NCBI RefSeq assembly: GCF_008831285.2
Contig: NC_037468.1
Location: forward strand, 477,001-541,000
DNA: 64,000 nt
Direction: 5' to 3'
DNA from: Nymphaea colorata
Lineage: Eukaryota > Streptophyta > Magnoliopsida > Nymphaeales > Nymphaeaceae
Under the pieces are notes generated by a model. It ran no database searches. It saw only the letters and a list, made by a program, of their open reading frames with translations, and was not told the DNA's origin. How positions within the stretch are numbered: position 1 is the stretch's first letter; every line of letters starts with the position of its first letter. Positions 10,116 through 62,790 of the stretch are shown one piece after another. The position numbers were made by a program, and so were the translations under genes.

Positions 10116-10414
10116 GTGAAAGGTAGGTCTTATGCGAGGTATTCCCAAAGCACTCGCTTCGGAGCTACAGGCTTTGCTCGTACGCAAAGACAAAAGTCAG
10201 GCTTTGCGAGTACAAAGCACTCGACTCGCAAAGCCTTTCATGTCACGTCACGAGCCAATTTCAAAGTCAAGGTCAGCGTACATGTCATTCAAAGTTGCGA
10301 GTGTCAATCTGATTTGCTTTGCTCGTGACATTGGAAAGCCAAAGCGAAGCGAGTGTGCTTATGATTTGTGGAAACACTAATGGCATACAATTGCCATTGG
10401 GAGCACTAATGGCA
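10116..10414. repeat. Array edge region, type I, with GCTTTGCGAGTGCTTT motif copies
   Basis: Bases 10116-10242 contain several direct and inverted copies of the edge motif (AAAGCACTCGC, GGCTTTGCGAG). Bases 10243-10414 (172 bp) recur exactly, as far as I can align by eye, at 37989-38160 in front of array 3. The arrays that follow the two copies run in opposite orientations, so a breakpoint lies at 10414. Confidence 0.85.
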
Positions 10415-13400
10415 ATTGTATGCCTTCAAGAATTGCACAATTATGGAAGGACTCTCTTGAAAGGTCAGGACTCTGAAAGGTCAGGACTAATGAGAATGAT
10501 TGAGGAAAAGTCAGAACTCACCTTATCAAAAAGGTCAAGACTGTCTTTCACAGTCAGGACTAACCTGACCAAAAAGATCAAGACTGTCTTGAAAGATCAG
10601 AACTTCTTCTTCTTAAAAGGACAGGACCCTTTTGAAAGGTCAGGACTCATGACAATTGTATGCCATTAGTACTCACTTGACAAACAAATGCCATTAGTAC
10701 TCACTTGACAAACAAATGCCATTAGTGCTCACCATACCAACATGAGTACTCACCATACCAAAACAGGTGAGGACTCTGAAAGGTCAGGACTAATGAGAAT
10801 GATTGAGGAAAAGTCAGAACTCACCTGACCATACAAGACTCATTTGTATGTCATCAGTACTCACCTTATCAAAAAGGTCAAGACTGTCTTTCACAGTCAG
10901 GACTAACCTTACCAAAAAGATCAAGACTATCTGATCAGGACTGATTCTTCTGGTCAAGACTGTATTTCACAGTCAGGACTGACCTTACCAAAAAGGTCAA
11001 GACTGTCTTGAAAGGTCAGGACTGATTTTTCTTGAAAGGTCAAGACTGTCTTGAAATCAGTACTGACCTTATCAAAAAGGTCAAGACTGTCTTTCACAGT
11101 CAGGACTAACCTTACCAAAAAGATCAAGACTATCTGATCAGGACTGATTCTTCTGGTCAAGACTGTCTTTCACAGTCAGGACTAACCTTACCAAAAAGGT
11201 CAAGACTGTCTTGAAAGGTCAGGACTGATTCTTCTGGAAAGGTCAAGACTGTCTTGAAAGGTCAGGACTCATTCTTCTTGAAAGGTCAGGACTCATTATG
11301 GAAAAGTCAGGAAGGTGAGGACTCTTTTGAAAGGTCAGGACTCTGAAAGGTCAGGACTAATGAGAATGATTGAGGAAAAGTCAGATTCCATACAGGACTC
11401 TTTTGAAAGGTCAGGACTCCTTATGGAAGGACAGGACCCTTTTGAAAGGTCAGGACTCATGACAATTGTATGCCATTAGTACTCACTTGACAAACAAATG
11501 CCATTAGTACTCACTTGACAACAAAATGCCATTAGTACTCACTTGACAACAAATTGTATGTCTCTCACTTGACAAACAAATGCCATTAGTACTCACTTGA
11601 CAAACCAATGTCATTAGTACTCACTGTACAAACCAATGTCATTAGTACTCACCATACCAAAACAGGTCAGGACTTTCTGGAAAGGTCAAGACTCTGAAAG
11701 GTCAGGACTAATGAGAATGATTGAGGAATGACCATCAAGACTCATTTGTATGTCATCAGTACTCACCTTATCAAAAAGGTCAAGACTGTCTTTCAAAGTC
11801 AGGACTAACCTTACCAAAAAGATCAAGACTATCTGATCAGGACTGATTCTTCTGGTCAAGACTGTATTTCACAGTCAGGACTGACCTTACCAAAAAGATC
11901 AAGACTGTCTTGAAAGGTCAGGACTTTTGATGGAAGGACAGGACCAATTGCAATTGTATGCCATTAGTACTCACCTGACCAAAAATGGAAAGGTCAAGAC
12001 TGTCTTGAAAGGTCAGGACTCATTCTTCTTGAAAGGTCAGGACTGATTATGGAAGGACAGGACCAATTGCAATTGTATGCCATTAGTACTCACCTTATCA
12101 AAAAGGTCAAGACTGTCTTTCAAAGTCAGGACTGACCTTATCAAAAAGGTCAAGACTGTCTTTCAAAGTCAGGACTAACCTGACCAAAAAGGTCAAGACT
12201 GTCTTGAAAGGTCAGGACTGATTCTTCTTGAAAGGTCAAGACTGTCTTGAAAGGTCAGGACTGATTCTTCTGGAAAGGTCAAGACTATGAAAGGTCAGGA
12301 CTAATGAGAATGATTGAGGAATGACCATCAAGACTCATTTGTATGTCATCAGTACTCACCTTATCAAAAAGGTCAAGACTGTCTTTCACAGTCAGGACTA
12401 ACCTTACCAAAAAGATCAAGACTATCTGATCAGGACTGATTCTTCTGGTCAAGACTGTATTTCACAGTCAGGACTGACCTTACCAAAAAGGTCAAGACTG
12501 TCTTGAAAGGTCAGGACTGATTTTTCTTGAAAGGTCAAGACTGTCTTGAAATCAGTACTGACCTTTTTTGAAAGATCAAGACTATCTTGAAAGATCAGGA
12601 CTGATTCTTCTGGTCAAGACTGTCTTTCAAAGTCAGGACTAACCTTACCAAAAAGGTCAAGACTGTCTTGAAAGGTCAGGACTGATTCTTCTTGAAAGGT
12701 CAAGACTGTCTTGAAAGGTCAGGACTCATTCTTCTTGAAAGGTCAGGACTCTTTTGAAAGGTCAAGACTCATTTGTATGTCATCAGTACTCACCTTATCA
12801 AAAAGGTCAAGACTGTCTTTCAAAGTCAGGACTAACCTTACCAAAAAGATCAAGACTATCTGATCAGGACTGATTCTTCTGGTCAAGACTGTATTTCAAA
12901 GTCAGGACTGACCTTACCAAAAAGGTCAAGACTGTCTTGAAAGGTCAGGACTGATTTTTCTTGAAAGGTCAAGACTGTCTTGAAATCAGTACTGACCTTA
13001 TCAAAAAGGTCAAGACTGTCTTTCAAAGTCAGGACTAACCTTACCAAAAAGATCAAGACTATCTGATCAGGACTGATTCTTCTGGTCAATACTGTATTTC
13101 AAGGTCAGGACTGACCTTACCAAAAAGGTCAAGACTGTCTTGAAAGGTCAGGACTGATTCTTCTTGAAAGGTCAAGACTGTCTTGAAAGGTCAGGACTCA
13201 TTCTTCTTGAAAGGTCAGGACTCATTGCAATTCAATGCCATTAGTACTCACTTGACAAACAAATGCCATTAGTACTCACTTGACAAACAAATGCCATTAG
13301 TACTCACTTGACAAACAAATGCCATTAGTACTCACTTGACAAACAAATGCCATTAGTACTCACTGTACAAACAAATGCCATTAGTGCTCACCATACCAAC

Positions 13401-14941
13401 ATGAGTACTCACCCTACCAAAACAGGTGAGGACTCATTATGGACAGGACTACTTTCCGGTCAAGACTCTGAAAGGTCAGGACTAATGAGAATGATTGAGG
13501 AATGACCATCAAGACTCATTTGTATGTCATCAGTACTCACCTTATCAAAAAGGTCAAGACTGTCTTTCAAAGTCAGGACTAACCTTACCAAAAAGATCAA
13601 GACTATCTGATCAGGACTGATTCTTCTGGTCAAGACTGTCTTTCACAGTCAGGACTGACCTTATCAAAAAGGTCAAGACTGTCTTTCACAGTCAGGACTA
13701 ACCTTACCAAAAAGGTCAAGACTGTCTTGAAAGGTCAGGACTTTTGATGGAAGGACAGGACCAATTGCAATTGTATGCCATTAGTACTCACCTGACCAAA
13801 AATGGAAAGGTCAAGACTGTCTTGAAATCAGTACTGACCTTATCAAAAAGGTCAAGACTGTCTTTCAAAGTCAGGACTAACCTTACCAAAAAGATCAAGA
13901 CTATCTGATCAGGACTGATTCTTCTGGTCAATACTGTATTTCAAGGTCAGGACTGACCTTACCAAAAAGGTCAAGACTGTCTTGAAAGGTCAGGACTGAT
14001 TCTTCTGGAAAGGTCAAGACTGTCTTGAAAGGTCAGGACTCATTCTTCTTGAAAGGTCAGGACTGATTATGGAAGGACAGGACCAATTGCAATTGTATGC
14101 CATTAGTACTCACCTTATCAAAAAGGTCAAGACTGTCTTTCAAAGTCAGGACTGACCTTACCAAAAAGGTCAAGACTGTCTTGAAAGGTCAGGACTGATT
14201 CTTCTTGAAAGGTCAAGACTCTGAAAGGTCAGGACTAATGAGAATGATTGAGGAATGACCATCAAGACTCATTTGTATGTCATCAGTACTCACCATACCA
14301 AAACAGGTGAGGACTGTCTTGAAAGGTCAAGACTCTGAAAGGTCAGGACTAATGAGAATGATTGAGGAAAAGTCAGAACTCACCTTACCATACAAGACTC
14401 ATTTGTATGTCATCAGTACTCACCTTATCAAAAAGGTCAAGACTGTCTTTCAAAGTCAGGACTAACCTTACCAAAAAGATCAAGACTATCTGATCAGGAC
14501 TGATTCTTCTTGAAAGGTCAAGACTGTATTTCACAGTCAGGACTGACCTTATCAAAAAGGTCAAGACTGTCTTTCACAGTCAGGACTAACCTGACCAAAA
14601 AGGTCAAGACTGTCTTGAAAGGTCAGGACTTTTGATGGAAGGACAGGACCAATTGCAATTGTATGCCATTAGTACTCACCTGACCAAAAATGGAAAGGTT
14701 AAGACTGTCTTGAAAGGTCAGGACTGATTCTTCTTGAAAGATGAAGACTCATTGCAATTGTATGCCATTAGTACTCACTGTACAAACAAATGCCATTAGT
14801 ACTCACTATACCAACATGAGTACTCACCATACCAAAACAATGCCATTAGTGCTCCCAATGGCAATTGTATGCCATTTTCCATACAACAAATTGTATGCCA
14901 TTAGTGAAAAGAATGAAGATCAATGACAATTGTCCATCAAT
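10415..14941 (-). repeat. Array 1a: modular short-repeat array, orientation A
   Basis: About 4.5 kb is made almost wholly of modules of 20-40 bp in variable order. The commonest are AAGGTCAAGACTGTCTT, GGTCAGGACTGATTCTTC, GCCATTAGTACTCAC and CAATTGCAATTGTATGCC. Many are palindromic: TCAAGACTGTCTTGA is symmetric about one central base, and CAATTGCAATTG is nearly so. Larger units recur within the array, for example the block holding GATCAAGACTATCTGATC followed by TTCTTCTGGTCAA. Open frames of 60-120 codons here simply translate the repeat and are not genes. The right end mirrors array 1b across a short centre. Confidence 0.95.
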
Positions 14942-15105
14942 ATGAGTTCCCTTCTTGTCTGATAGTCTATCAGAGTGAGTCTGAATCAGCCCTACGCTTT
15001 GCTCATGACTTTGTTCGCTTTGCGAGTGCTTTCTTAAGGGAACTCGTCAAGCGAAGCTCTGACGGAAATGGATAAATTTGAATTGATTGAAAGAAGGGAA
15101 CTCAT
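14942..15105. repeat. Centre of the array 1 palindrome
   Basis: Bases 14942-14956 (ATGAGTTCCCTTCTT) are the reverse complement of 15091-15105, and the array arms extend outward from both. The 134-base spacer contains the edge motif (CGCTTTGCGAGTGCTTTC), the same phrase as at the left edge of the TIR element (CTGAATCAGCCCTACGC), and a short self-complementary stretch, CTGATAGTCTATCAG. The symmetry point is about 15023. Confidence 0.9.
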
Positions 15106-18100
15106 CAATTTGCAATTGTCATGGATTTTGGAAGGCATACAATTTGTTGTATGGAAAATGGCATCTTTTTGGTATAGTGAGTACTCATGTTGGTATGGTG
15201 AGCACTAATGGCATTTGTTTGTACAGTGAGTACTAATGGCATTTGTTTGTACAGTGAGTACTAATGGCATTTGTTTGTACAGTGAGTACTAATGGCATAC
15301 AATTGCAATGAGTCTTCATCTTTCAAGAAGAATCAGTCCTGACCTTTCAAGACAGTCTTAACCTTTCCATTTTTGGTCAGGTGAGTACTAATGGCATACA
15401 ATTGCAATTGGTCCTGTCCTTCCATCAAAAGTCCTGACCTTTCAAGACAGTCTTGACCTTTTTGGTCAGGTTAGTCCTGACTGTGAAAGACAGTCTTGAC
15501 CTTTTTGATAAGGTCAGTCCTGACTGTGAAATACAGTCTTGACCTTTCAAGAAGAATCAGTCCTGATCAGATAGTCTTGATCTTTTTGGTAAGGTTAGTC
15601 CTGACTTTGAAAGACAGTCTTGACCTTTTTGATAAGGTGAGTACTGATGACATACAAATGAGTCTTGATGGTCATTCCTCAATCATTCTCATTAGTCCTG
15701 ACCTTTCATAGTCTTGACCTTTCCAGAAGAATCAGTCCTGACCTTTCAAGACAGTCTTGACCTTTTTGGTAAGGTCAGTCCTGACTTTGAAAGACAGTCT
15801 TGACCTTTTTGATAAGGTGAGTACTAATGGCATACAATTGCAATTGGTCCTGTCCTTCCATAATCAGTCCTGACCTTTCAAGAAGAATGAGTCCTGACCT
15901 TTCAAGACAGTCTTGACCTTTCCAGAAGAATCAGTCCTGACCTTTCAAGACAGTCTTGACCTTTTTGGTAAGGTCAGTCCTGACCTTGAAATACAGTATT
16001 GACCAGAAGAATCAGTCCTGATCTTTCAAGATAGTCTTGATCTTTTTGGTAAGGTTAGTCCTGACTTTGAAAGACAGTATTGACCTTTTTGATAAGGTCA
16101 GTACTGATTTCAAGACAGTCTTGACCTTTCCATTTTTGGTCAGGTGAGTACTAATGGCATACAATTGCAATTGGTCCTGTCCTTCCATCAAAAGTCCTGA
16201 CCTTTCAAGACAGTCTTGACCTTTTTGGTAAGGTCAGTCCTGACTGTGAAATACAGTATTGACCAGAAGAATCAGTCCTGATCAGATAGTCTTGATCTTT
16301 TTGGTAAGGTTAGTCCTGACTTTGAAATACAGTATTGACCTTTTTGATAAGGTGAGTACTGATGACATACAAATGAGTCTTGATGGTCATTCCTCAATCA
16401 TTCTCATTAGTCCTGACCTTTCAGAGTCTTGACCGGAAAGTAGTCCTGTCCATAATGAGTCCTCACCTGTTTTGGTATGGTGAGTACTCATGTTGGTATG
16501 GTGAGCACTAATGGCATTTGTTTGTACAGTGAGTACTAATGGCATTTGTTTGTCAAGTGAGTACTAATGGCATTTGTTTGTCAAGTGAGTACTAATGGCA
16601 TTTGTTTGTCAAGTGAGTACTAATGGCATTTGTTTGTCAAGTGAGTACTAATGGCATTGAATTGCAATGAGTCCTGACCTTTCAAGAAGAATGAGTCCTG
16701 ACCTTTCAAGACAGTCTTGACCTTTCAAGAAGAATCAGTCCTGACCTTTCAAGACAGTCTTGACCTTTTTGGTAAGGTCAGTCCTGACCTTGAAATACAG
16801 TCTTGACCAGAAGAATCAGTCCTGATCTTTCAAGATAGTCTTGATCTTTTTGGTAAGGTTAGTCCTGACTTTGAAATACAGTATTGACCTTTTTGATAAG
16901 GTCAGTACTGATTTCAAGACAGTCTTGACCTTTCAAGAAAAATCAGTCCTGACCTTTCAAGACAGTCTTGACCTTTTTGGTAAGGTCAGTCCTGACTGTG
17001 AAAGACAGTCTTGACCAGAAGAATCAGTCCTGATCAGATAGTCTTGATCTTTTTGGTAAGGTTAGTCCTGACTTTGAAAGACAGTCTTGACCTTTTTGAT
17101 AAGGTGAGTACTGATGACATACAAATGAGTCTTGACCTTTCAAATGAGTCCTGACCTTTCAAGAAGAATGAGTCATGACCTTTCAAGACAGTCTTGACCT
17201 TTCAAGAAGAATCAGTCCTGACCTTTCAAGACAGTCTTGACCTTTTTGGTAAGGTTAGTCCTGACTTTGAAATACAGTCTTGACCAGAAGAATCAGTCCT
17301 GATCAGATAGTCTTGATCTTTCAAAAAAGGTCAGTACTGATTTCAAGACAGTCTTGACCTTTCCATTTTTGGTCAGGTGAGTACTAATGGCATACAATTG
17401 CAATTGGTCCTGTCCTTCCATCAAAAGTCCTGACCTTTCAAGACAGTCTTGACCTTTTTGGTAAGGTCAGTCCTGACTGTGAAATACAGTCTTGACCAGA
17501 AGAATCAGTCCTGATCAGATAGTCTTGATCTTTTTGGTAAGGTTAGTCCTGACTTTGAAAGACAGTCTTGACCTTTTTGATAAGGTGAGTACTGATGACA
17601 TACAAATGAGTCTTGATGGTCATTCCTCAATCATTCTCATTAGTCCTGACCTTTCAGAGTCTTGACCTTTCAAGAAGAATCAGTCCTGACCTTTCAAGAC
17701 AGTCTTGACCTTTTTGGTAAGGTCAGTCCTGACTGTGAAATACAGTCTTGACCTTTTTGATAAGGTGAGTACTAATGGCATACAATTGCAATTGGTCCTG
17801 TCCTTCCATAATCAGTCCTGACCTTTCAAGAAGAAGGAGTCCTGACCTTTCAAGACAGTCTTGACCTTTCCATTTTTGGTCAGGTGAGTACTAATGGCAT
17901 ACAATTGCAATTGGTCCTGTCCTTCCATCAAAAGTCCTGACCTTTCAAGACAGTCTTGATCTTTTTGGTAAGGTCAGTCCTGACTGTGAAATACAGTCTT
18001 GACCAGAAGAATCAGTCCTGATCAGATAGTCTTGATCTTTTTGGTAAGGTTAGTCCTGACTTTGAAAGACAGTCTTGACCTTTTTGATAAGGTGAGTACT

Positions 18101-21100
18101 GATGACATACAAATGAGTCTTGACCTTTCAAGACAGTCCTCACCTTCCTGACTTTTCCATAATGAGTCCTGACCTGTTTGGTATGGTGAGTACTGATGAC
18201 ATACAAATGAGTCTTGATGGTCATTCCTCAATCATTCTCATTAGTCCTGACCTTTCAGAGTCTTGACCTTTCCAGAAGAATCAGTCCTGACCTTTCAAGA
18301 CAGTATTGACCTTTCAAAAAAGGTCAGTCCTGACTGTGAAAGACAGTATTGACCTTTTTGATAAGGTGAGTACTAATGGCATACAATTGCAATTGGTCCT
18401 GTCCTTCCATAATCAGTCCTGACCTTTCCAGAAGAATGAGTCCTGACCTTTCAAGACAGTCTTGACCTTTCCAGAAGAATCAGTCCTGACCTTTCAAGAC
18501 AGTCTTGACCTTTTTGGTAAGGTCAGTCCTGACCTTGAAATACAGTATTGACCAGAAGAATCAGTCCTGATCTTTCAAGATAGTCTTGATCTTTTTGGTA
18601 AGGTTAGTCCTGACTTTGAAAGACAGTCTTGACCTTTTTGATAAGGTCAGTACTGATTTCAAGACAGTCTTGACCTTTCAAGAAAAATCAGTCCTGACCT
18701 TTCAAGACAGTCTTGACCTTTTTGGTAAGGTCAGTCCTGACTTTGAAATACAGTCTTGACCAGAAGAATCAGTCCTGATCAGATAGTCTTGATCTTTTTG
18801 GTAAGGTTAGTCCTGACTTTGAAATACAGTCTTGACCTTTTTGATAAGGTGAGTACTGATGACATACAAATGAGTCTTGACCTTTCAAAACAGTCTTCAT
18901 CTTTTTGGTATGGTGAGTACTGATGACATACAAATGAGTCTTGACCTTTTTGGATCCTGACCTGTTTGGTATGGTGAGTACTGATGACATACAAATGAGT
19001 CTTGACCTTTCAAGACAGTCCTGACCTGTTTTGGTATGGTGAGTACTAATGACATTGGTTTGTACAGTGAGTACTAATGACATTTGTTTGTCAAGTGAGT
19101 ACTAATGGCATTTTGTTGTCAAGTGAGAGACATACAATTTGTTGTCAAGTGAGTACTAATGGCATACAATTGCAATGAGTCCTGACCTTTCAAAAGAGTC
19201 CTGTATGGTCATTCCTCAATCATTCTCATTAGTCCTGACCTTTCAGAGTCCTGACCTTTCAAAAGAGTCCTCACCTTTCAAGAAGAATGAGTCCTGACCT
19301 TTCAAGACAGTCTTGACCTTTCAAGAAGAATCAGTCCTGACCTTTCAAGACAGTCTTGACCTTTTTGGTAAGGTTAGTCCTGACTGTGAAATACAGTCTT
19401 GACCAGAAGAATCAGTCCTGATCAGATAGTCTTGATCTTTTTGGTAAGGTTAGTCCTGACTTTGAAATACAGTCTTGACCTTTTTGATAAGGTCAGTACT
19501 GATTTCAAGACAGTCTTGACCTTTCAAGAAAAATCAGTCCTGACCTTTCAAGACAGTCTTGACCTTTTTGGTAAGGTCAGTCCTGACTGTGAAAGACAGT
19601 CTTGACCAGAAGAATCAGTCCTGATCAGATAGTCTTGATCTTTTTGGTAAGGTTAGTCCTGACTGTGAAAGACAGTCTTGACCTTTTTGATAAGGTGAGT
19701 ACTGATGACATACAAATGAGTCTTGACCTTCCTGACCTTTCCAGAGAGTCCTGACCTTTTTGGTAAGGTGAGTTCTGACTTTTCCTCAATCATTCTCATT
19801 AGTCCTGACCTTTCAGAGTCCTGACCTTTCCATCTTTTTGGTATGGTGAGTACTAATGACATTGGTTTGTACAGTGAGTACTAATGGCATATGGAAAGTA
19901 CTAATGGCATTTGTTTGCACAGTGAGTACTAATGGCATATGGAAAGTACTAATGGCATTTTGTTGTCAAGTGAGAGACATACAATTTGTTGTCAAGTGAG
20001 TACTAATGGCATACAATTGCAATGAGTCCTGACCTTTCAAGAAGAATGAGTCCTGACCTTTCAAGACAGTCTTGACCTTTCAAAAGAGTCCTGACCTTCC
20101 TGACTTTTCCATAATGAGTCCTGACCTTTCCAGAAGAATCAGTCCTGACCTTTCAAGACAGTCTTGACCTTTTTGGTAAGGTCAGTCCTGACTGTGAAAT
20201 ACAGTCTTGACCAGAAGAATCAGTCCTGATCAGATAGTCTTGATCTTTTTGGTAAGGTTAGTCCTGACTTTGAAAGACAGTCTTGACCTTTTTGATAAGG
20301 TGAGTACTGATGACATACAAATGAGTCTTGACCTTCCTGACTTTTCCATAATGAGTCCTGACCTTTCCAGAAGAATCAGTCCTGACCTTTCAAGACAGTC
20401 TTGACCTTTCCAGAAGAATCAGTCCTGACCTTTCAAGACAGTCTTGACCTTTTTGGTAAGGTCAGTCCTGACCTTGAAATACAGTCTTGACCAGAAGAAT
20501 CAGTCCTGATCAGATAGTCTTGATCTTTTTGGTAAGGTTAGTCCTGACTTTGAAAGACAGTCTTGACCTTTTTGATAAGGTCAGTACTGATTTCAAGACA
20601 GTCTTGACCTTTCCATTTTTGGTCAGGTGAGTACTAATGGCATACAATTGCAATTGGTCCTGTCCTTCCATCAAAAGTCCTGACCTTTCAAGACAGTCTT
20701 GACCTTTTTGGTAAGGTCAGTCCTGACTGTGAAATACAGTCTTGACCAGAAGAATCAGTCCTGATCAGATAGTCTTGATCTTTTTGGTAAGGTTAGTCCT
20801 GACTGTGAAAGACAGTCTTGACCTTTTTGATAAGGTGAGTACTGATGACATACAAATGAGTCTTGATGGTCATTCCTCAATCATTCTCATTAGTCCTGAC
20901 CTTTCAGAGTCTTGACCTTTCCAGAAGAATCAGTCCTGACCTTTCAAGACAGTCTTGACCTTTCCATTTTTGGTCAGGTGAGTACTAATGGCATACAATT
21001 GCAATTGGTCCTGTCCTTCCATCAAAAGTCCTGACCTTTCAAGACAGTCTTGACCTTTTTGGTCAGGTTAGTCCTGACTGTGAAAGACAGTCTTGACCTT

Positions 21101-21260
21101 TTTGATAAGGTCAGTCCTGACTTTGAAAGACAGTCTTGACCTTTTTGATAAGGTGAGTACTAATGGCATACAATTGCAATTGGTCCTGTCCTTCCATAAT
21201 CAGTCCTGACCTTTCCATAACATTCAGGAAATCGTCAAAAGTGCTTCCATTGGTCTGAAT
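15106..21260 (+). repeat. Array 1b: modular short-repeat array, orientation B
   Basis: About 6.1 kb of the same modules as array 1a, reverse-complemented: GTCTTGACC, GAAGAATCAGTCCTGACC, GTGAGTACTAATGGC and GGCATACAATTGCAATTG. The arm mirrors 1a in detail near the centre. For instance, the rare variant AGTCTTAACCTTTCC at about 15355-15370 answers GGAAAGGTTAAGACT at 14693-14707. A 28-bp unit (GTGAGTACTAATGGCATTTG plus TTTGTCAA) is tandem about four times near 16540-16660. The arm ends in a non-modular 40-bp tail, 21221-21260, which recurs at the end of array 2. Confidence 0.95.
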
Positions 21261-21626
21261 TAGATTAGCTTCTTTGAAGAAAGAACTCTTTTCATATCTG
21301 AAATTGGCATTACTCCTACTTTGAATAAGCAAACTCGCTTCCTTTGGCTTTCAATGTCCAGTCCAAACGAACCACTATCAGAGTGAATGTCATTTTGATA
21401 AGCTTGATAAGCACTCTTTGTTCGCTTTTCCCTGAAGCTTCGCTTTGCGAGTGCTTTCTTTTTCTTGAAGTTTTTTAGTTTGCTTTGCTCGTTCCGCTAT
21501 CGAGCTTTGCCTTCCGCTTTGCGAGGCTTTCTTTATAGGTCCTCGGAGCTCTTTTCGCCGAGCATTTCACCCTCTTGACTTCGCTACGCTCAGCGGCTCG
21601 CCAATAGTTAAAATTTCTTCTTTGTT
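21261..21626. other. Spacer with edge-motif copies upstream of tRNA-Trp
   Basis: The stretch holds no gene. It contains edge-motif copies at about 21430-21455 (GAAGCTTCGCTTTGCGAGTG) and 21480-21530. The minus-strand frame at 21475-21669 runs into the tRNA and is discarded. Confidence 0.6.
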
Positions 21627-21699
21627 GGGAGAATAGTTCCAATGGTAGAACAATGGTCTCCAAAACCACAGGTTAAGGGTTCGAATCCCTTTTCTCCTG
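21627..21699 (+). tRNA. trnW-CCA: tRNA-Trp (anticodon CCA), mitochondrial type
   Basis: A complete cloverleaf can be folded. The acceptor stem pairs GGGAGAA (21627-21633) with TTCTCCT (21692-21698), including one G-T pair, and G21699 is the discriminator. The D stem is GTTC/GAAC. The anticodon stem is ATGGT/ACCAC, with an A-C mismatch at its outer pair, and its loop CTCCAAA carries CCA at 21660-21662. The T stem and loop are AAGGG-TTCGAAT-CCCTT. The CCA tail is not encoded. Many flowering plants use a plastid-derived tRNA-Trp beginning GCGCTCTTAG; this sequence is different, so it looks like the older mitochondrial gene. It lies 367 bp beyond the end of array 1b. Confidence 0.9.
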
Positions 21700-24075
21700 A
21701 TCCGGAAACTCTGATTCATTCCTCTGGGGGGAGTTCGCAACCAAAGAAGTGCTTGGACCCGACCCCTTTTTCTGTTATGGCCGAAGCCCTACCCTACATA
21801 CAGCTAGAGCTACAGAGTTAGATTTCCAATTCTAGAAAACAAAAACGTGTGAGCTACTGGCTATTCTAAAGACCGGGTGACCACCCGGCTTCTGAGGATC
21901 TAAAAAAACAGTCTTTGAGATAGCGCGGCTACTTGAGTACGCAAGCCCTACGAAGTACGCAAGCCTTTTTCATTTGAAGTAGGGCGACCAGTTGGATAGT
22001 GACTTCTTTAGGACGACTACTCTTGCTAGGGCTTCTTCCTTTGATTTTTGTGATCTATGGAAGCCTTTGATACAAGAGGCGCCCCTTCTTCAAAAGGCGC
22101 TACTGTGCCACTATCTAACACCACCGATAGACTACTGAAGATTCAAAAGGCGCTACTACATCTAATAGAGTGAGTCAACCGAAGGTTCCCCTTCTAGCTT
22201 GAATCCCAGTCCCCTATGGATAGTCAATAAAGAAAAGATCTATAGTTAGCCTGAACTAGTGAAGTTTGGTATGACCTTTTTCTTTTTAGCAGAAGAAATT
22301 GCCTTCTTCTTTGCTGCTACAGCGGAAACCCTATGGAAGTACCAAGGGCGAACAGCCCCTCTTCCAATAAGAAATTGAAGACCGGCGTACTACAAAACGA
22401 ATTCCTTCCAACCGGTCGCATAGCAAGATGGATGGGCTCAGGTAGCCGAAGTCAGAAAGAGTGCGGCTAATATACCTTCTCCTCAAAATGAATGACACTA
22501 AAAAAGAGGCAAAAAAAGGTCTTTGGCTGCTACAGCGGAAACCTTAAAATCATCATCCACTTCCTCTTTGGCGGAAGCTAAAGCTACCTTTCCATCATCA
22601 GTACAACGCGCGGTTGCTATTAGCTTATTGACTTGAGCTTGAGGCATAGGCATAGGCGGGATAGGGATAGGGCTTTGCTTGAGCATAGGGAAAGCAGCTC
22701 TATCAGTCAGCCGATAGTACCCGTTGCCGCCGCCTGACCTTCAGAGTGAGTGGTGGTGGTGTAGTGGTGGTGGTTTTTCCTCTTCTGTCCCATGGGGTAG
22801 GGGGCGGCTTTTCAGTGAACCCAAAGGCTCAACGCTTTGCGATAGGAGCTTGCGCGTGGGCCCAAGCTCTATAGGAAATCCAATAGCATAGGCAACGCAG
22901 CGGCTACTCTTTTGCTATGGGAGTGATTTTCTTGTAGTTTCGCTTTTCTTTCTGCTTCTTCCTGTCTTCCCGGGGCGATGATCGAGTCTAGTTCTCGACT
23001 CATTGAGCGAGTATTCACGTATAGTAAATATACAAGGCCCGACGGTGAAGTGAATCTAGATAGAAGGGTCAAAGGCCCGACGGTGTAGTCTTTCAGATGT
23101 CTCAGGTTGCTACGAATCACGCGGTTCCTGGATCGTGTGATTTTTGGTTTTCATAGGTACATGATGAAAGACTAGTGAATGATCCTCAATTCCGTCAAAT
23201 GTGTTCCGTATTCATCCTTCCTTGAGCACCGTTTGCTATTTAGTTTTCTGTGATATTGGCCCTTTTCCAGATTGTCTGTCTCAATCTCTGAGTGGACGCG
23301 CGCTATCCTTCTTCAGAAGCAAAATCAGAAGCAAAATGTCTTTCTTGGGGGCTCTGGGCTTCGTCATTGTTTTCGCTGTGACTTCTCACAGCGGAGGTCG
23401 AACCCAAGTGACCTACTGCTGGCACGTCTGGAGCTGAAGGCGCATCAAGCGATTCCTCCTTCGCGGAACCACGGTCAGAAACTGAGGTCAATCAGCCAAC
23501 CCCCCCGTGGCAGGCTCTGAAGGCCCAGAGCACCAAACGGAATTGACTCGCAATGCGAGCTGAGAAGCCTCCCTCATCAATCGTGACCTCGAAAATGCAA
23601 ATAGCATTTGTCTGATACAGGAGAGCCCAGGGGGGCATTGGGAGGCTTTGAAGCAAAGCCTTTTTCAAGCTTCCTCCCAACTGTCTGATAATGAATGACT
23701 TGACTTCGAAAAGAGGGATCTCAGGATCCGCGAGCTCAAACACGAGTGTCACACTCTTTTTAAGGACATCCAGAGTTGTTGACAAATTCCCCCAGCAACT
23801 TGAGGCAGACGATGCTTTGACTTTCTTCTTTGACGAGACTCGTAATGAGCTCGATAACGAACTCAAGTCATACCCGGGCCGGGTCGAAATAGCAGATCAG
23901 GAAGACAGAGAAATGCTACAAGCGATCCAGAAGGATCTCCGAAAGAATGACCCCAACTCTGACTATATCCAAAAAAGATTAGGGTCTTTCTCAGTTTCTT
24001 TTTTTTTCGGTATGCCGCTCCGCGAGCAAGGAGCGCCGTGAGCAGAGCGCGAGAACGAAGTAGTGGGCTGTGGTG
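21700..24075. other. Spacer between tRNA-Trp and nad3
   Basis: No known gene is visible. There are small local duplications: TTCAAAAGGCGCTACT at about 22090 and 22143, and GCTGCTACAGCGGAAACC at about 22314 and 22528. Opposed open frames at 23492-23866 (minus, 124 codons) and 23691-24041 (plus, 116 codons) overlap. The plus product is acidic and charged (DETRNELDNELKSYPG) but I cannot assign it. Confidence 0.5.
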
Positions 24076-24432: not shown

Positions 24433-24484
24433 CCACTAGTGAGTGATAGGGCGAAAAGAGGGGGGAAGGACAAAGGAAAGAGCG

Positions 24485-24868: not shown

Positions 24869-25770
24869 ATGGAAGATGCCTCTGGATTAACGATTCGAAG
24901 TCCCAGTGTACTGCCCAATCTCAATGTAGCCTGATAGGGATCCTTTGATTGTTTCGGTGGCCCTTGATGCCATGCCAGGCACGCCACCTTCCGACGAATG
25001 CCGCAAAGGTAGGTCTTTTTTTCTTCACACTACAAGAGCAGAAAGAGCAGTGGATGAATCTGTTTGCCAGCTCGGCGAATGTCTTGATAGAGCCGGGCTC
25101 CAACGAGATGAACCATTCCAGGTAGGTTAGACTTCTCTGGAACAAGCGAATGAGCAGCGGATCTTCAGTGGCCCGTTGCTGAAGGAGGTGGGCTTTTGGA
25201 TTGCCCGTGCTGGGGAAACTTGGTTTTTTGGAGGGGCCAACGAGCAAAGCGCTCGCCGCGAAGCGAGTGCTTGAGGTCAAAAGGCAAACTTCCGTCTGTG
25301 GGCCTGGCGATTTTAGCTTGAAGGTGCCGTAGCTGTGGGGGTCGAGGGGATTTTGAAAAGTGGTTTGAGGCCCTGCTGACGCATGAGCTGCTGGCGGAGC
25401 TTGATGTGCTGACGCACCCTTGGCCGGCCTGGAAGCCGGATGGTCCAGCGGGAGTGCAGTGATCCGGTTCGATGGTCCCCGGGATGTTTATCCCGGTCTT
25501 GTGCATAATACCATCCCATTCCGATAGAAGGGGACGGGACAGGCGGTTGGGTGGGAGATCAAAATAGGAGTTGAGTCAGGTCAGCGATAACCTGAATTCT
25601 CCCTCATTCGGGCGGAAATCTACGAGGTCCATACTACTGAACTTCACGGAAACCGGCAGGAGGGTCCGTTAGGGCTTCAGGGTTTGATGGGTTGAGCGGG
25701 CTTGGGGCATTTGTTTCCAATCTGAGTTTCCGGTACGAGCCATTTTCAAAGTCAAGGTCAGCGCACATGT
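24869..25770. other. Spacer between rps12 and array 2
   Basis: No gene is recognised. Opposed frames at 24921-25280 and 25165-25506 (minus) overlap with no family resemblance. Edge-motif words (CAAAGCGCTCGCC, GCGAAGCGAGTGC) occur at about 25235-25272, before the shared entry sequence of array 2. Confidence 0.5.
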
Positions 25771-25970
25771 CAGCGTACATGACTTTGCTTTGCATTTCAT
25801 CAAAGTGGCTCATGAATCCAAAGCGAAGCATTCAAAGCTTTTGGTTGGAACATCAATTTGCAATTGTCATGGATTTTTGAAGGCATACAATTTGTTGTAT
25901 GGAAAATGGCATCTTTTTGGTATAGTGAGTACTCATGTTGGTATGGTGAGCACTAATGGCATTTGTTTGT
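25771..25970. repeat. Array entry sequence, type II, copy 1
   Basis: These 200 bp recur at 50028-50227 in front of array 4a, with no difference found by eye. The segment holds GTACATGACTTTGCTTTGC, then CATCAATTTGCAATTGTCAT, and runs into the first array modules (GGTATGGTGAGCACTAATGG). Its last third is also shared with the start of array 1b at 15110-15200. Confidence 0.9.
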
Positions 25971-30923: not shown

Positions 30924-31536
30924 CAGAAAAAGAGGGCTTTGTTCTGACGTGACGTGACCTTCAGCAATTTGAAGTTGCGAGTGCTTTGACTATCAGACGT
31001 GCAAAGCCCACAAAGCACTCGCAAAGAGGGCTTTGCTCGTGACTTTGTTCGCTTTGCGAGTGCTTTGACTATCAAAGATCCGAGCTTCCATTCATTTTGT
31101 CCTGACTCACTAGGCGAAGGGTCTGATATTGCGTTTGCATACTCGACGAGAGAGAAATGAGATATGAGAGAGACGAGGGGTGAAAACCAATAAAAACATT
31201 AACGGATTTGGGATATGCAGATGGAAGAGATGCTTAGGAAGAGTACTACCTTTGTGTAGAATACATTGAATTGGTTAGGGAAAAGAGTTAGCTGTTGTTG
31301 CTGGAGCCAGTTCTCTTTTGTCTTTCTCGTGGCACGGTCAGAGTGACTGTTGGTGCTTGAATCGTGCTTTTGGTGGTTGGTGCGGTACTCGTGGTGGTGC
31401 TACGAGATGTTATCATAATTTCATAGATACGGATTGATCCCCCGTCAGAACTCAGGATCCGCGGATCCTTTTCATCTAATCACACACAGGTTGCTCTGTC
31501 ATTGTCTGATTTTTGGTTGTCTCCTTACGAAAAAGA
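30924..31536. other. Spacer upstream of nad5 with edge-motif copies
   Basis: Bases 30950-31070 contain repeated forms of the edge motif (AAAGCACTCGCAAAG, TTCGCTTTGCGAGTGC). The rest is presumed 5' flank of nad5. I see no clear promoter consensus that I would defend. Confidence 0.5.
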
Positions 31537-44968: not shown

Positions 44969-45027
44969 AAAGCACTCGCAAAGCTTCGCTTAAGGGAACT
45001 CGCAAAGCGAAGCTTTGCGAGTGCTTT
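44969..45027. repeat. Hairpin made of two opposed edge motifs (23-bp stem)
   Basis: Bases 44969-44991 (AAAGCACTCGCAAAGC and the next seven bases) are the exact reverse complement of 45005-45027, with a 13-base loop. This copy stands alone, not beside an array, which suggests that the edge motif can itself insert or be copied as a hairpin. Confidence 0.92.
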
Positions 45028-49118: not shown

Positions 49119-49739
49119 TCAATCTTGGGAACTAATCGAGACCGAAATTGGAGAAGGAGATACGAACGGAGAGGAATAACCAATCGATGAAAGAACATGA
49201 AACCATTCAGTTTCCATAGAGGTACTGAAAACGGTTGGGGGCAATGAAGTAGGTGAAGTGGTTGGATTTTGCGAGCTGTTCCAACCACTGCTATCTTTCA
49301 TTCCAAGAGCCGAACGAGAGTGAATACCACACAGAAGAGTCAAGACCGGGCTCCCTAATGGAATGTTTAACCGAACCATTCCGGATCGATCGAATTGGTA
49401 CGGAAGTTGTAACATGGGAAAACCACGGAAAACACGACTTATTTTAATAACCCGGTGACCTACCAATTGTAGAAGTAGGATCTTTGGAAAGCAATAAGCA
49501 CTGAAATAATACGATTCGAGTGTACCATCTTCTTTCTCATTTCGAGGAAAAGGTGAGGGAGGAAAAGGAAACAACGGAGGGATCCGAATCGGACCTAAAT
49601 GGGAATGACATGAAAAGTCTTTTTCAAAACCTATCATTAAGGGCGTTACGACGATATACGAGAGGAATGGATAAAAACTCGTGATTAGTGTGGAGGGGAA
49701 GATCCGTTTATGAAATAGTTCAAGAAAGAGTCGTCTCAT
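49119..49739 (-). CDS. ccmB: Cytochrome c maturation protein B (heme exporter membrane subunit)
   Basis: CcmB is the membrane subunit of the CcmAB transporter, part of the system I pathway that attaches heme to cytochromes c. The 206-codon length and the ends fit plant ccmB: start MRRLFLELFHKRIFPSTLIT at 49739 and end SVSISSQD. The longer frame that opens at 49769 adds ten upstream codons that are not part of the family. Conserved stretches include FLSYIVVTPLMIGFEKDFSC, HLGPIRIPPLFPF, LLQLVGHRVIKISRVFRGFP and WFHVLSSIGYSSPF. Pre-edited codons are visible (RVFRGFPMLQLPYQFDRSG where RVFCGFPMLQLLYQFDQSG is usual). The gene stands alone, between the LINE relic and array 4. Confidence 0.97.
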   Translation of the reverse strand: MRRLFLELFHKRIFPSTLITSFYPFLSYIVVTPLMIGFEKDFSCHSHLGPIRIPPLFPFPPSPFPRNEKEDGTLESYYFSAYCFPKILLLQLVGHRVIKISRVFRGFPMLQLPYQFDRSGMVRLNIPLGSPVLTLLCGIHSRSALGMKDSSGWNSSQNPTTSPTSLPPTVFSTSMETEWFHVLSSIGYSSPFVSPSPISVSISSQD

Positions 49740-50027
49740 TTCCTTACTTCTTCGTTCCTTCGTCTTCATTCACTTAAACTGGTTCTGAACGCCGTAACAC
49801 CCTCCACCGTACGTACCGTGCGGCCACTACAAAATTGCTGATACACCAGCAGCTTGCTTATATGCTGATACACCAGCAGCTTGCTTTTGCTTATAGAATA
49901 CGCTGACTAAAAAGAAGACGCTTACTCAAATCAAAGACTGACTAGGCTAGGCCAACGTCACGTCATGAGCAAAGCCCTACGCTTTGCGAGTGCTTTGTAC
50001 GTCACGAGCCATTTTCAAAGTCAAGGT
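49740..50027. other. 5' flank of ccmB with edge motif leading to array 4
   Basis: Holds a 23-27 bp tandem phrase (GCTGATACACCAGCAGCTTG, about 49837-49885, twice), then the edge motif (CTACGCTTTGCGAGTGCTTT at about 49978-49997). Confidence 0.6.
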
Positions 50028-50227
50028 CAGCGTACATGACTTTGCTTTGCATTTCATCAAAGTGGCTCATGAATCCAAAGCGAAGCATTCAAAGCTTTTG
50101 GTTGGAACATCAATTTGCAATTGTCATGGATTTTTGAAGGCATACAATTTGTTGTATGGAAAATGGCATCTTTTTGGTATAGTGAGTACTCATGTTGGTA
50201 TGGTGAGCACTAATGGCATTTGTTTGT
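50028..50227. repeat. Array entry sequence, type II, copy 2
   Basis: Direct 200-bp copy of 25771-25970. It leads into array 4a in the same orientation as it leads into array 2, so these two arrays share a complete left junction. Confidence 0.9.
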
Positions 50228-52878
50228 ACAGTGAGTACTAATGGCATTTGTTTGTCAAGTGAGTACTAATGGCATTTGTTTGTACAGTGAGTACTAATGG
50301 CATACAATTGCAATGAGTCTTCATCTTTCAAGAAGAATCAGTCCTGACCTTTCAAGACAGTCTTAACCTTTCCATTTTTGGTCAGGTGAGTACTAATGGC
50401 ATACAATTGCAATTGGTCCTGTCCTTCCATCAAAAGTCCTGACCTTTCAAGACAGTCTTGACCTTTTTGGTAAGGTTAGTCCTGACTGTGAAAGACAGTC
50501 TTGACCTTTTTGATAAGGTCAGTCCTGACTGTGAAATACAGTCTTGACCAGAAGAATCAGTCCTGATCAGATAGTCTTGATCTTTTTGGTAAGGTCAGTC
50601 CTGACTGTGAAAGACAGTCTTGACCTTTTTGATAAGGTGAGTACTGATGACATACAAATGAGTCTTGATGGTCATTCCTCAATCATTCTCATTAGTCCTG
50701 ACCTTTCAGAGTCTTGACCTTTCCAGAAGAATCAGTCCTGACCTTTCAAGACAGTCTTGACCTTTCCATTTTTGGTCAGGTGAGTACTAATGGCATACAA
50801 TTGCAATTGGTCCTGTCCTTCCATCAAAAGTCCTGACCTTTCAAGACAGTCTTGACCTTTTTGGTCAGGTTAGTCCTGACTTTGAAAGACAGTCTTGACC
50901 TTTTTGATAAGGTCAGTCCTGACTTTGAAAGACAGTCTTGACCTTTTTGATAAGGTGAGTACTAATGGCATACAATTGCAATTGGTCCTGTCCTTCCATA
51001 ATCAGTCCTGACCTTTCCAGAAGAATGAGTCCTGACCTTTCAAGACAGTCTTGACCTTTCCATTTTTGGTCAGGTGAGTACTAATGGCATACAATTGCAA
51101 TTGGTCCTGTCCTTCCATCAAAAGTCCTGACCTTTCAAGACAGTCTTGATCTTTTTGGTAAGGTCAGTCCTGACTGTGAAATACAGTCTTGACCAGAAGA
51201 ATCAGTCCTGATCAGATAGTCTTGATCTTTTTGGTAAGGTCAGTCCTGACTTTGAAAGACAGTCTTGACCTTTTTGATAAGGTGAGTACTGATGACATAC
51301 AAATGAGTCTTGTATGGTCAGGTGAGTACTAATGGCATACAATTGCAATTGGTCCTGTCCTTCCATAATCAGTCCTGACCTTTCAAGACAGTCTTGACCT
51401 TTCAAGAAGAATCAGTCCTGACCTTTCAAGACAGTCTTGACCTTTTTGGTCAGGTTAGTCCTGACTTTGAAAGACAGTCTTGACCTTTTTGATAAGGTCA
51501 GTCCTGACTTTGAAAGACAGTCTTGACCTTTTTGATAAGGTGAGTACTGATGACATACAAATGAGTCTTGACCTTTCAAAACAGTCTTCATCTGTTTGGT
51601 ATGGTGAGTACTGATGACATACAAATGAGTCTTGATGGTCATTCCTCAATCATTCTCATTAGTCCTGACCTTTCATAGTCTTGACCTTTCCAGAAGAATC
51701 AGTCCTGACCTTTCAAGACAGTCTTGACCTTTCCAGAAGAATCAGTCCTGACCTTTCAAGACAGTCTTGACCTTTTTGGTAAGGTTAGTCCTGACTGTGA
51801 AAGACAGTCTTGACCTTTTTGATAAGGTCAGTCCTGACTGTGAAAGACAGTCTTGACCTTTTTGATAAGGTGAGTACTAATGGCATACAATTGCAATTGG
51901 TCCTGTCCTTCCATAATCAGTCCTGACCTTTCAAGAAGAATGAGTCCTGACCTTTCAAGACAGTCTTGACCTTTCCATTTTTGGTCAGGTGAGTACTAAT
52001 GGCATACAATTGCAATTGGTCCTGTCCTTCCATCAAAAGTCCTGACCTTTCAAGACAGTCTTGATCTTTTTGGTAAGGTCAGTCCTGACTGTGAAATACA
52101 GTCTTGACCAGAAGAATCAGTCCTGATCAGATAGTCTTGATCTTTTTGGTAAGGTCAGTCCTGACTTTGAAAGACAGTCTTGACCTTTTTGATAAGGTGA
52201 GTACTGATGACATACAAATGAGTCTTGTATGGTCAGGTGAGTACTAATGGCATACAATTGCAATTGGTCCTGTCCTTCCATAATCAGTCCTGACCTTTCA
52301 AGACAGTCTTGACCAGAAGAATCAGTCCTGACCTTTCAAGACAGTCTTGACCTTTTTGGTCAGGTCAGTCCTGACTGTGAAATACAGTATTGACCAGAAG
52401 AATCAGTCCTGATCAGATAGTCTTGATCTTTCAAAAAAGGTGAGTACTCATTGTTGATGGAAAATGGCATTTGTTTGTCAAGTGAGTACTAATGGCATTT
52501 TGTTGTCAAGTGAGTACTAATGGCATTTTGTTGTCAAGTGAGTACTAATGGCATTTGTTTGTCAAGTGAGTACTAATGGCATACAATTGTCATGAGTCCT
52601 GACCTTTCAAAAGGGTCCTGTCCTTTTAAGAAGAAGAAGTTCTGATCTTTCAAGACAGTCTTGATCTTTTTGGTCAGGTTAGTCCTGACTTTGAAAGACA
52701 GTCTTGACCTTTTTGATAAGGTGAGTTCTGACTTTTCCTCAATCATTCTCATTAGTCCTGACCTTTCAGAGTCCTGACCTTTCAAAAGGGTCCTGTCCTT
52801 CCATAATCATTCCTCAATCATTCTCATTAGTCCTGACCTTTCCAGAGAGTCCTGACCTTTCCATAATGAGTCCTGACC
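50228..52878 (+). repeat. Array 4a: modular short-repeat array, orientation B
   Basis: About 2.65 kb of the shared modules, with the AGTCTTAACCTTTCC variant near the left end. It ends at CATAATGAGTCCTGACC immediately before the hinge. Open frames inside (for example 51202-51405 and 51412-51642) translate the repeat and are not genes. Confidence 0.95.
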
Positions 52879-53019
52879 TGGTCAGACAAATCGTTCAAAG
52901 TGCTGACCAAAAGTTGAATGGAATGATCTTCACAAAATGATATTGACTCTTTTGTCAGGGTCAGCGGCATACAATTCAATTTGTGATATGGTCAGCACTT
53001 GTCAGGATTTGTCTGACCT
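52879..53019. repeat. Hinge of the array 4 palindrome (31-bp imperfect inverted repeat)
   Basis: Bases 52879-52909 (TGGTCAGACAAATC, then GTGCTGACCA) pair with 52989-53019 (TGGTCAGCACTTG, then GATTTGTCTGACC) with a few mismatches. The 79-bp loop holds GTCAGGGTCAGCGGC and a near-palindrome ACAATTCAATTTGT. This hinge sequence is not found in the other arrays. Confidence 0.85.
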
Positions 53020-55070
53020 GAATCAGTGACCTTATGGAAAGGTCAGGACTCATTTCTTGAAAGGTGAGGACTTTATGGAAAGGTCAAGACTCATTTGTAT
53101 GTCATCAGTACTCACCTTATCAAAAAGGTCAAGACTGTCTTTCAAAGTCAGGACTAACCTTACCAAAAAGATCAAGACTATCTGATCAGGACTGATTCTT
53201 CTGGTCAAGACTGTATTTCACAGTCAGGACTGACCTTACCAAAAAGGTCAAGACTGTCTTGAAAGGTCAGGACTGATTTTTCTGGTCAAGACTGTCTTGA
53301 AATCAGTACTGACCTTTTTTGAAAGATCAAGACTATCTTGAAAGATCAGGACTGATTCTTCTGGTCAATACTGTATTTCAAGGTCAGGACTGACCTTACC
53401 AAAAAGGTCAAGACTGTCTTGAAAGGTCAGGACTGATTCTTCTGGAAAGGTCAAGACTGTCTTGAAAGGTCAGGACTCATTCTTCTGGAAAGGTCAGGAC
53501 TGATTATGGAAGGACAGGACCAATTGCAATTGTATGCCATTAGTACTCACCTTATCAAAAAGGTCAAGACTGTCTTTCACAGTCAGGACTGACCTTATCA
53601 AAAAGGTCAAGACTGTCTTTCACAGTCAGGACTAACCTTACCAAAAAGGTCAAGACTGTCTTGAAAGGTCAGGACTGATTCTTCTGGAAAGGTCAAGACT
53701 GTCTTGAAAGGTCAGGACTGATTCTTCTGGAAAGGTCAAGACTATGAAAGGTCAGGACTAATGAGAATGATTGAGGAATGACCATCAAGACTCATTTGTA
53801 TGTCATCAGTACTCACCTTATCAAAAAGGTCAAGACTGTCTTTCAAAGTCAGGACTAACCTTACCAAAAAGATCAAGACTATCTGATCAGGACTGATTCT
53901 TCTGGTCAATACTGTATTTCACAGTCAGGACTGACCTTATCAAAAAGGTCAAGACTGTCTTTCAAAGTCAGGACTAACCTGACCAAAAAGGTCAAGACTG
54001 TCTTGAAAGGTCAGGACTTTTGATGGAAGGACAGGACCAATTGCAATTGTATGCCATTAGTACTCACCTGACCAAAAATGGAAAGGTCAAGACTGTCTTG
54101 AAAGGTCAGGACTGATTCTTCTGGAAAGGTCAGGACTCATTATGGAAAAGTCAGGAAGGTGAGGACTTGATTGAAAGGTCAAGACTATGAAAGGTCAGGA
54201 CTAATGAGAATGATTGAGGAATGACCATCAAGACTCATTTGTATGTCATCAGTACTCACCTTATCAAAAAGGTCAAGACTGTCTTTCAAAGTCAGGACTA
54301 ACCTTACCAAAAAGATCAAGACTATCTGATCAGGACTGATTCTTCTGGAAAGGTCAAGACTGTATTTCACAGTCAGGACTGACCTTACCAAAAAGGTCAA
54401 GACTGTCTTGAAAGGTCAGGACTGATTTTTCTTGAAAGGTCAAGACTGTCTTGAAATCAGTACTGACCTTATCAAAAAGGTCAAGACTGTCTTTCACAGT
54501 CAGGACTAACCTTACCAAAAAGATCAAGACTATCTGATCAGGACTGATTCTTCTGGTCAAGACTGTCTTTCAAGGTCAGGACTGACCTTACCAAAAAGGT
54601 CAAGACTGTCTTGAAAGGTCAGGACTGATTCTTCTTGAAAGGTCAAGACTGTCTTGAAAGGTCAGGACTGATTCTTCTTGAAAGGTCAGGACTCATTATG
54701 GAAAAGTCAGGAAGGTCAGGACTCTTTTGAAAGGTCAAGACTGTCTTGAAAGGTCAGGACTCATTCTTCTTGAAAGGTCAGGACTCATTGCAATTGTATG
54801 CCATTAGTACTCACTTGACAACAAATTGTATGTCTCTCACTTGACAAACAAATGCCATTAGTACTTTCCATATGCCATTAGTACTCACTGTGCAAACAAA
54901 TGCCATTAGTACTTTCCATATGCCATTAGTACTCACTGTACAAACAAATGTCATGAGTGCTGACCATACCAAAATCCATCCAAATTGGTTGATGGATAAT
55001 GGCATCTCCTTTTTTTGATGGATAATGGCATACAATGACAATTGATCCTTTCCATCAACCATCAAACCTT
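53020..55070 (-). repeat. Array 4b: modular short-repeat array, orientation A
   Basis: About 2 kb of modules in the opposite orientation to 4a. It ends at about 54960-55070 in repeated GATGGATAATGGCAT phrases, with CCAAATTGGTTGATGG, and then the phrase CCCTGAAGCTTCGCTTTGCG, the edge motif, at 55095-55114. Confidence 0.93.
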
Positions 55071-57105: not shown

Positions 57106-57131
57106 GATCGAATTATGTGGGATAGGAACCT

Positions 57132-61502: not shown

Positions 61503-61589
61503 GGTACGCAGGACATGAGATTTCCATCGGGACGTGGGAAAGAGGATCTAACATGTTTTGATCAAAAGAGCGAAACATCCGTTATATTA

Positions 61590-62035: not shown

Positions 62036-62180
62036 AACCTCCTAGTCAACCTAAAAATACAGGCCCAAACGTCACGTTCTTAGATTAGCAAAGCCCAAAA
62101 AGCACTCGCAACTTTGAATGCTGAAAGAAGGGAAAAGGTACATAGTGAATCTCATTTTGTCTGAATCAGCCCTACGCTTT

Positions 62181-62790
62181 GCGAGTGCTTTCTGAAAGAA
62201 GGGATCAAGGTTTGACGGATTGATGGAAAGGAAATGATGGAAAGGTCAGGACTAATGAGAATGATTGAGGAATGATTATGGAAGGACAGGACCCTTTTGA
62301 AAGGTCAGGACTCTGAAAGGTCAGGACTAATGAGAATGATTGAGGAAAAGTCAGAACTCACCTTATCAAAAAGGTCAAGACTGTCTTTCAAAGTCAGGAC
62401 TAACCTGACCAAAAAGATCAAGACTGTCTTGAAAGATCAGAACTTCTTCTTCTTAAAAGGACAGGACCCTTTTGAAAGGTCAGGACTCATGACAATTGTA
62501 TGCCATTAGTACTCACTTGACAAACAAATGCCATTAGTACTCACTTGACAACAAAATGCCATTAGTACTCACTTGACAACAAAATGCCATTAGTACTCAC
62601 TTGACAAACAAATGCCATTTTCCATCAACAATGAGTACTCACTATACCAAAAAGATGCCATTTTCCATACCAAGAAAGATGCCATTAGTGCTGACCATAC
62701 AACCAATTGTATGCCATTAGTGTTTCATTGAAGAGAAAGACAATTGCAATGACCATCAAACCTTGATCCCTTCTTTCAGAAAGCACTCGC
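62181..62790. mobile_element. 610-bp array element with perfect 35-bp terminal inverted repeats
   Basis: Bases 62181-62215 (GCGAGTGCTTTCTGAAAGAA, then GGGATCAAGGTTTGA) are the exact reverse complement of 62756-62790. Between them lie array modules in orientation A (AAAAGGTCAAGACTGTC, GCCATTAGTACTCAC). Each terminus starts with the second half of the edge motif. The inner part closely matches the 10465-10690 segment of array 1a and, in reverse, 52570-52785. No transposase is encoded and no clear target-site duplication is seen, so any movement would have to be non-autonomous. Confidence 0.88.

Follow-up and report, generated by a model that had tools for sequence, protein, structure and literature searches.

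What kind of sequence fills about a third of a 64,000-nucleotide stretch of a plant mitochondrial genome, and how did it come to grow and spread there? The stretch analyzed here (the window) covers positions 477,001-541,000 of the 617,195-base-pair (bp) mitochondrial contig of Nymphaea colorata. A sequence-only reading of the window had proposed that a single modular and palindromic repeat family occupies this share of it, in several arrays and on both strands. Our data indicated that the family is a satellite of the mitochondrial genome whose short modules form a nearly closed vocabulary. Array limits derived from k-mer multiplicity delineated seven arrays totaling 22,441 bp, or 35.1% of the window, and every limit fell within 90 bp of the coordinates proposed earlier. 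The arrays, given with the strand of their module sense, are A1 (10376-14905, +), A2 (15136-21218, -), A3 (25884-30881, -), A4 (38122-39724, -), A5 (50141-52879, -), A6 (53034-55036, +), and the short A7 (62237-62721, +).

Modules were defined by cutting the arrays at each core of the AAGACT, AGGACT or AGTACT type, which yielded 944 modules of 122 types (938 and 116, respectively, with tighter array limits), 88% of the modules belonging to the 50 commonest types. The same cut applied to 41,559 non-array bases produced 160 pieces, all of them distinct and long (median, 172 bases), indicating that the modules are not a product of the method. Most modules begin with AAGACT, AGGACT or AGTACT and end in GGTC, another TC or CATT (among the 938 modules, TC in 766 and CATT in 121), and the neighboring half-stems GACC/GGTC and CAAGAC/GTCTTG could pair to either side. 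The repetitiveness of the arrays was evident from 1,870 distinct 14-mers in their 22,441 bases, compared with 22,140 in an equal amount of non-array DNA, and from the 31-mer AAGGTCAAGACTGTCTTGAAAGGTCAGGACT, which matched at 155 places with at most three mismatches, whereas 100 shuffled sequences gave a mean of 0.00. Positions 1-200000 of the mitochondrial contig, of which 190,000 bases were readable, served as an out-of-sample stretch. There, 33 arrays (76,558 bp) contained 3,003 modules, 2,756 of which were identical to some window module, with 100 of 252 types common to both stretches; the vocabulary is thus nearly closed.

The order of the modules is constrained as well. A module of the AAGACT/AATACT kind was followed by another of its own kind in only 3 of 362 cases, and the naive entropy of the next module dropped from 5.7 to 1.4 bits once the previous module was known. 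Alignment of the module strings of A1 and A2 placed 157 modules in register, 116 of them identical, with a score of 219 against 113 for the best of eight Markov simulations. Among the pairs formed by A1 to A6 (A7 was too short for this comparison), 14 of 15 outscored all eight simulations, which bears out the conserved higher-order blocks suspected earlier; the A1-A4 pair failed to do so (65 versus 74). Tandem Repeats Finder (TRF) reported periods including 19, 24, 43, 76, 203 and 434 among the first 150 of 271 rows. Polarity, TRF periods and collinear strings thus describe head-to-tail monomers with recurring multi-monomer blocks, as in a satellite or higher-order tandem repeat. The higher similarity within than between arrays that a satellite should also display was absent, both in module runs and in allele identity. 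Higher-order nuclear satellites combine monomers into larger repeated blocks; unlike them, the window family is mitochondrial and palindromic, has monomers of variable length, and has no centromere role.

Inside the window arrays, ten asymmetric markers occurred 510 times, in a single sense per array (510 to 0), and they were absent from the remainder of the window. The both-strand spread described earlier holds for whole arrays, which lie in either orientation, but not for the modules inside each window array, which are unidirectional. A1, with its head at the right end, and A2, with its head at the left end, face each other head-to-head across a linker at 14906-15135 that carries a core of a border-associated repeat at 15022, whereas A5 and A6 are joined tail-to-tail across 52880-53033. 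Together with its surroundings, the A5-A6 linker is imperfectly palindromic (70% in an alignment of 262 columns and 36 gaps). In the contig 1-200000 stretch, counting by delimited array gave 1,475 markers that followed the majority direction of their array and 56 that opposed it, the latter confined to three arrays, and one nine-base marker had four hits outside arrays while the other nine markers had none. Read along the sequence, orientation switched 4 times in 1,500 adjacent marker pairs, each time at a linker between opposed arrays: judged by eye, three of these linkers are related to the one between A5 and A6, and the fourth is a head-to-head joint. Inversion affects whole arrays.

These polarity data bear directly on the proposal that the arrays grew through template switching or strand slippage at small hairpins, and the palindromic nature of the family is indeed well established. 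TCAAGACTGTCTTGA occurred 37 times on the forward and 78 times on the reverse strand of the window, and CAATTGCAATTG occurred 39 times. Perfect inverted repeats (arms of 7, loop of at most 8) reached 9.9 per kb inside the arrays versus 1.25 per kb outside, and the mean hairpin-energy z-score was -1.65 in 200 sampled array tiles compared with -0.21 in 200 sampled outside tiles; together with the segmentation, these values uphold the description of the repeat as both modular and palindromic. By eye, the outer end of A1 (10376-10440), at the junction of the array with an inverted head border, is a hairpin whose arms are perfect over 17 bp and whose loop has 9 bases. At one palindrome site, matched states prevailed (G-C in 248 and T-A in 10 copies) over unmatched ones (G.A in 34, T.C in 3 and G.T in 3), which hints at hairpin-guided correction having occurred once or a few times. 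The inverted-repeat density, the paired changes and the location of inverted array joints in partly palindromic linkers would all suit growth at hairpins. However, template switching at hairpins would leave inverted modules in the arrays, and none was seen among the 510 window markers, with only the four switches per 1,500 elsewhere; the paired change, moreover, may be a single event multiplied by array copying. The growth model is therefore not supported at the module level, and we consider it unlikely.

The arrays are apparently non-coding. In A1, A2 and A3, the arrays scanned, the longest stop-to-stop frame lying wholly within an array was 110 amino acids. For two frames, one within A2 and one spanning the A1 border, the 13 and 5 candidates returned, respectively, included no protein relative at an E value of 0.001. 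The coding capacity of a transposable element was thus not found in these frames. The earlier view that the repeat is neither a simple satellite nor a coding sequence agrees with these data, which show no sign of coding in the frames of A1-A3. A non-coding array might nevertheless serve in replication, in recombination control, at transcript ends or through RNA hairpins, and the raised hairpin potential and the low point divergence of the family would be compatible with such roles. Array length and order, however, vary freely among arrays, and plant mitochondrial DNA mutates slowly, such that low divergence would be expected anyway. A function of this kind seems to us rather improbable.

Variation among the modules is limited. 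Private one-base variants, counted as single-copy modules one base away from a common one, numbered 12 in 22,361 bp of the window (12 of 46 single-copy modules) and 35 in 73,793 bp of the contig 1-200000 stretch (35 of 98). At the CAAAGTC/CACAGTC site, allele identity was 0.50 between arrays versus 0.49 within an array beyond 300 bp, and the other five variant sites tested behaved in the same way. Local homogenization of variants was not seen: none of the six sites had spatial clustering beyond 300 bp. Below 100 bp, neighbors were less alike at five of the six sites, as alternating modules predict. Exact runs of at least 8 modules were found 9 times within and 53 times between arrays (62 in total), corresponding to 1.0 versus 1.5 per 10,000 position pairs. 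Since such runs are not commoner within arrays, the arrays look like related copies that were mixed or copied whole rather than freshly grown in place. Eight array-pair alignments, which overlap and are not independent, contained 166 allelic differences; 111 of these were between two common alleles, as would suit conversion, and 55 involved a rare allele.

Whole-array copying is also suggested by the sequences that border the arrays. The outer border of A1 (10243-10375) is 98.9% identical to the head border of A4 (37989-38121) over 180 bp including the array edge; the head borders of A3 (25735-25883) and A5 (50004-50140) are 94% identical over 209 bp; and the tail borders of A2 (21221-21264) and A3 (30884-30927) are 99% identical over 104 bp, the latter two lengths again including the array edge. 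A second, palindromic repeat with the core GCGAGTGCTTT / AAAGCACTCGC is associated with the borders. Three of its cores lie beside A3 (30977-31066), and, besides the core in the A1-A2 linker, others occur near arrays at 10147, 21447, 37966, 39777, 39842, 49986, 55111, 62099, 62181 and 62780. In the window, 14 of 17 cores were located within 300 bp of an array edge, compared with 8% of free positions, and in the contig 1-200000 stretch, 44 of 65 were (12% expected). When the core sites were rotated, the observed edge association was matched in 18 of 5,000 trials for the window and in 5 of 5,000 for the contig 1-200000 stretch. This test is fairer than binomial p-values, which are too small because the cores cluster, although it takes in small rotations that preserve the core-edge link. 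The remaining window cores (7020, 44969 and 45017, the last two spanning 44969-45027) are the only ones more than 3 kb from an array and possibly mark former array sites.

Border motifs derived from the window recurred next to arrays elsewhere: within the contig 1-200000 stretch, all copies of headA (2 of 2), headB (4 of 4) and tailB (2 of 2), and 4 of 5 copies of a shared 27-base border piece, lay within 300 bp of an array. Such recurrence is what would be expected if dedicated machinery moved arrays together with their borders as a mobile element. Yet two of the six window border motifs, tailA and tailC, had no copy in that stretch, the borders vary from array to array, no long frame was present in the scanned arrays A1-A3, and ordinary segmental duplication accounts for the shared borders. 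A bordered mobile element accordingly appears quite improbable.

The reading that we favor, with a probability of roughly 0.6, is that the family grew by direct recombination within arrays and by the copying of bordered arrays, with conversion mixing the alleles. Modules would multiply because copies pair unequally while plant mitochondrial DNA undergoes recombination-dependent replication and repairs its breaks, so that stretches of modules are gained or lost without a change of direction. A likely but unproved step is short-patch conversion from copy to copy, which would mix a limited set of alleles. Entire arrays, borders included, would be duplicated, in some cases in inverted form, and would meet at palindromic linkers tail-to-tail or head-to-head. 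Some module variants may stem from hairpin-related mutation, which would not be the engine of growth, and no host function would be needed.

Several observations weigh against this reading. Conversion is its weakest step: the rare-allele share (55 of the 166 swaps) rises to 12 of 22 for A1-A2, private changes would be scarce as well if an array that was diverse beforehand had been copied recently, and the single-copy modules other than the private variants differ in length or by more than one base. No recent local slippage is seen, as exact runs of at least 8 modules show no excess within arrays. The link between border cores and array edges was spotted post hoc in the window, though it was confirmed in the contig 1-200000 stretch; there, 28 of the 60 edges of arrays longer than 300 bp have a border core within 300 bp and 32 do not, and headB is found at the tail side of arrays as well. 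Because tailA and tailC lack a copy in that stretch, our confidence is slightly lowered. Crossovers between repeats were, in addition, reported as very rare by Dong et al. (2018, PMC6092842), who listed 74 recombinant reads at ten repeat pairs. According to the table in that paper, the window contains none of these pairs; of one pair, a single copy (15,484-15,960) falls in an array of the contig 1-200000 stretch (14183-17102).

Sequences beyond the mitochondrial contig were also considered. The assembly contains 761 exact copies of the 31-mer, of which 755 are on the mitochondrial contig, assuming none on the last contig, which lies outside the matches listed. Scaled from this count, the family is extrapolated to occupy about 237 kb, or 38% of the mitogenome. 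Among the matches listed, the six copies elsewhere are on a 25-Mb contig (C8; five copies) and a 34-kb contig (C229; one copy, examined as a 3-kb locus only), and they raise the question of whether a nuclear satellite was imported into the mitochondrion. The C8 locus (4172-9480 of the extracted locus) consists of several short mitochondrial pieces, with exact 31-mers in both orientations, seven module blocks of about 110-220 bp each, and, as its 22 best matches, pieces of 180-227 bp that are 90.7-100% identical to scattered mitochondrial places. Judged from its sequence, this locus looks like mitochondrial DNA transferred to the nucleus, a direction in which such a patchwork is expected; with so few of the listed exact copies lying off the mitochondrial contig, import of a nuclear satellite is very improbable. 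The 31-mer was not found in viral contigs or in bacterial and archaeal genome contigs (0 in each), and a 1,001-base array stretch searched against plasmids in distant mode had no match. Repeats of this kind are hard to assemble, which could raise suspicion of an assembly artefact. A PacBio depth of 601x is, however, reported for the mitogenome (PMC6092842), and a second assembly, made independently from the raw reads, is described as being of "similar length and perfect collinearity" (PMC8466565), leaving an artefact with hardly any likelihood.

The window repeats belong to a mitogenome (KY889142) for which Dong et al. reported 301,676 bp (49%) of repeats, with repeat pairs mostly 100-200 bp long and 80-95% identical, and with 252 of 290 repeat clusters restricted to Nymphaea (PMC6092842). 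Among related mitogenomes, that of Nymphaea 'Joey Tomocik' (MW644617) measures 335 kb, some 280 kb less than that of N. colorata, that of Euryale ferox about 370 kb, and that of Brasenia schreberi over 1.49 Mb. By extrapolation, the family is estimated to make up about four fifths of these 301.7 kb. Those authors clustered BLAST matches, whereas our analysis resolves a single module family that has a constrained order, a polarity and borders; the terms tandem, palindrome, satellite, hairpin and motif are absent from the main text of their paper, supplements aside. Six module strings had no match in a full-text literature search, which did not cover sequence databases or supplements. Like the window family, the Bpu elements of Cycas and Ginkgo are short repeats whose copy number in a plant mitogenome can reach the hundreds, but Bpu is described as a dispersed 36-bp element with AAGG ends (PMC8297867), while the module markers of the window are confined to arrays. 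The Cycas and Ginkgo consensus sequences had no ungapped match here with 7 or fewer mismatches (best matches, 14 and 15 mismatches, respectively), so that an identity with Bpu was excluded, as the sequence-only reading had held. Its wider claim, that the family matches no known plant mitochondrial class, stands in part: the architecture is undescribed in the main text of PMC6092842, but the repeat load itself had been published. The nearest analogue, as described in the passages of PMC4478549 that cite Lilly and Havey (2001), is the cucumber mitogenome, which, as here, was expanded by short motifs; those motifs are said to recombine. The family is a lineage-specific plant mitochondrial repeat expansion, in which the internal order of the repeats (module grammar, polarity and borders) is new and the high repeat load was already known.

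The arrays share the window with mitochondrial genes. Exons 1 and 2 of nad5 were located at 31537-31773 and 32580-33797, the top two protein matches of exon 2 being from Nymphaea and Brasenia (99%); both exons lie beyond A3, which ruled out an array within the nad5 intron. Pfam also identified nad3, rps12 and rps13, and a group II intron end was present. A 216-amino-acid frame at 49119-49769 (-), which we take to be ccmB-like, gave no Pfam match. Retroelement remnants with an RNase H-like domain and a reverse-transcriptase zinc-binding domain (Pfam) occur at 516-827 (+) and 46330-46791 (-), and a frame at 63384-63809 (-) had weak integrase zinc-binding and weak mitovirus RNA polymerase matches, both just under the Pfam cut-off, and perhaps represents remnants of a retroelement and an endogenous mitovirus. 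The sole tRNA detected in the window, tRNA-Trp (cca) at 21626-21700 (+), lies outside every plastid insert listed for that range by Dong et al. (PMC6092842), who list a trnW(CCA) plastid insert at 299,952-301,010. A 729-bp inverted repeat given in the published table was not found where it was expected; this and the single tRNA cast doubt on an origin of the window in N. colorata, a doubt removed by the placement of the window on the mitochondrial contig.

A bolder version of the favored reading, which we offer tentatively, is that the family constitutes a single self-propagating "sentence" of about 50 common modules that is kept almost clear of private mutations by non-crossover conversion across the genome, crossovers themselves being nearly absent, occupies nearly two fifths of the mitogenome, and spreads as bordered, often inverted-paired units. 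If our reading is true, the published "49% repeats, 290 families" would become mostly one system with a readable grammar, and the mitogenome would offer hundreds of marked copies in which the duplication, conversion and inversion of plant mitochondrial DNA could be measured. It would also pose a testable paradox: abundant repeats and almost no crossover, yet alleles common to copies across the contig.

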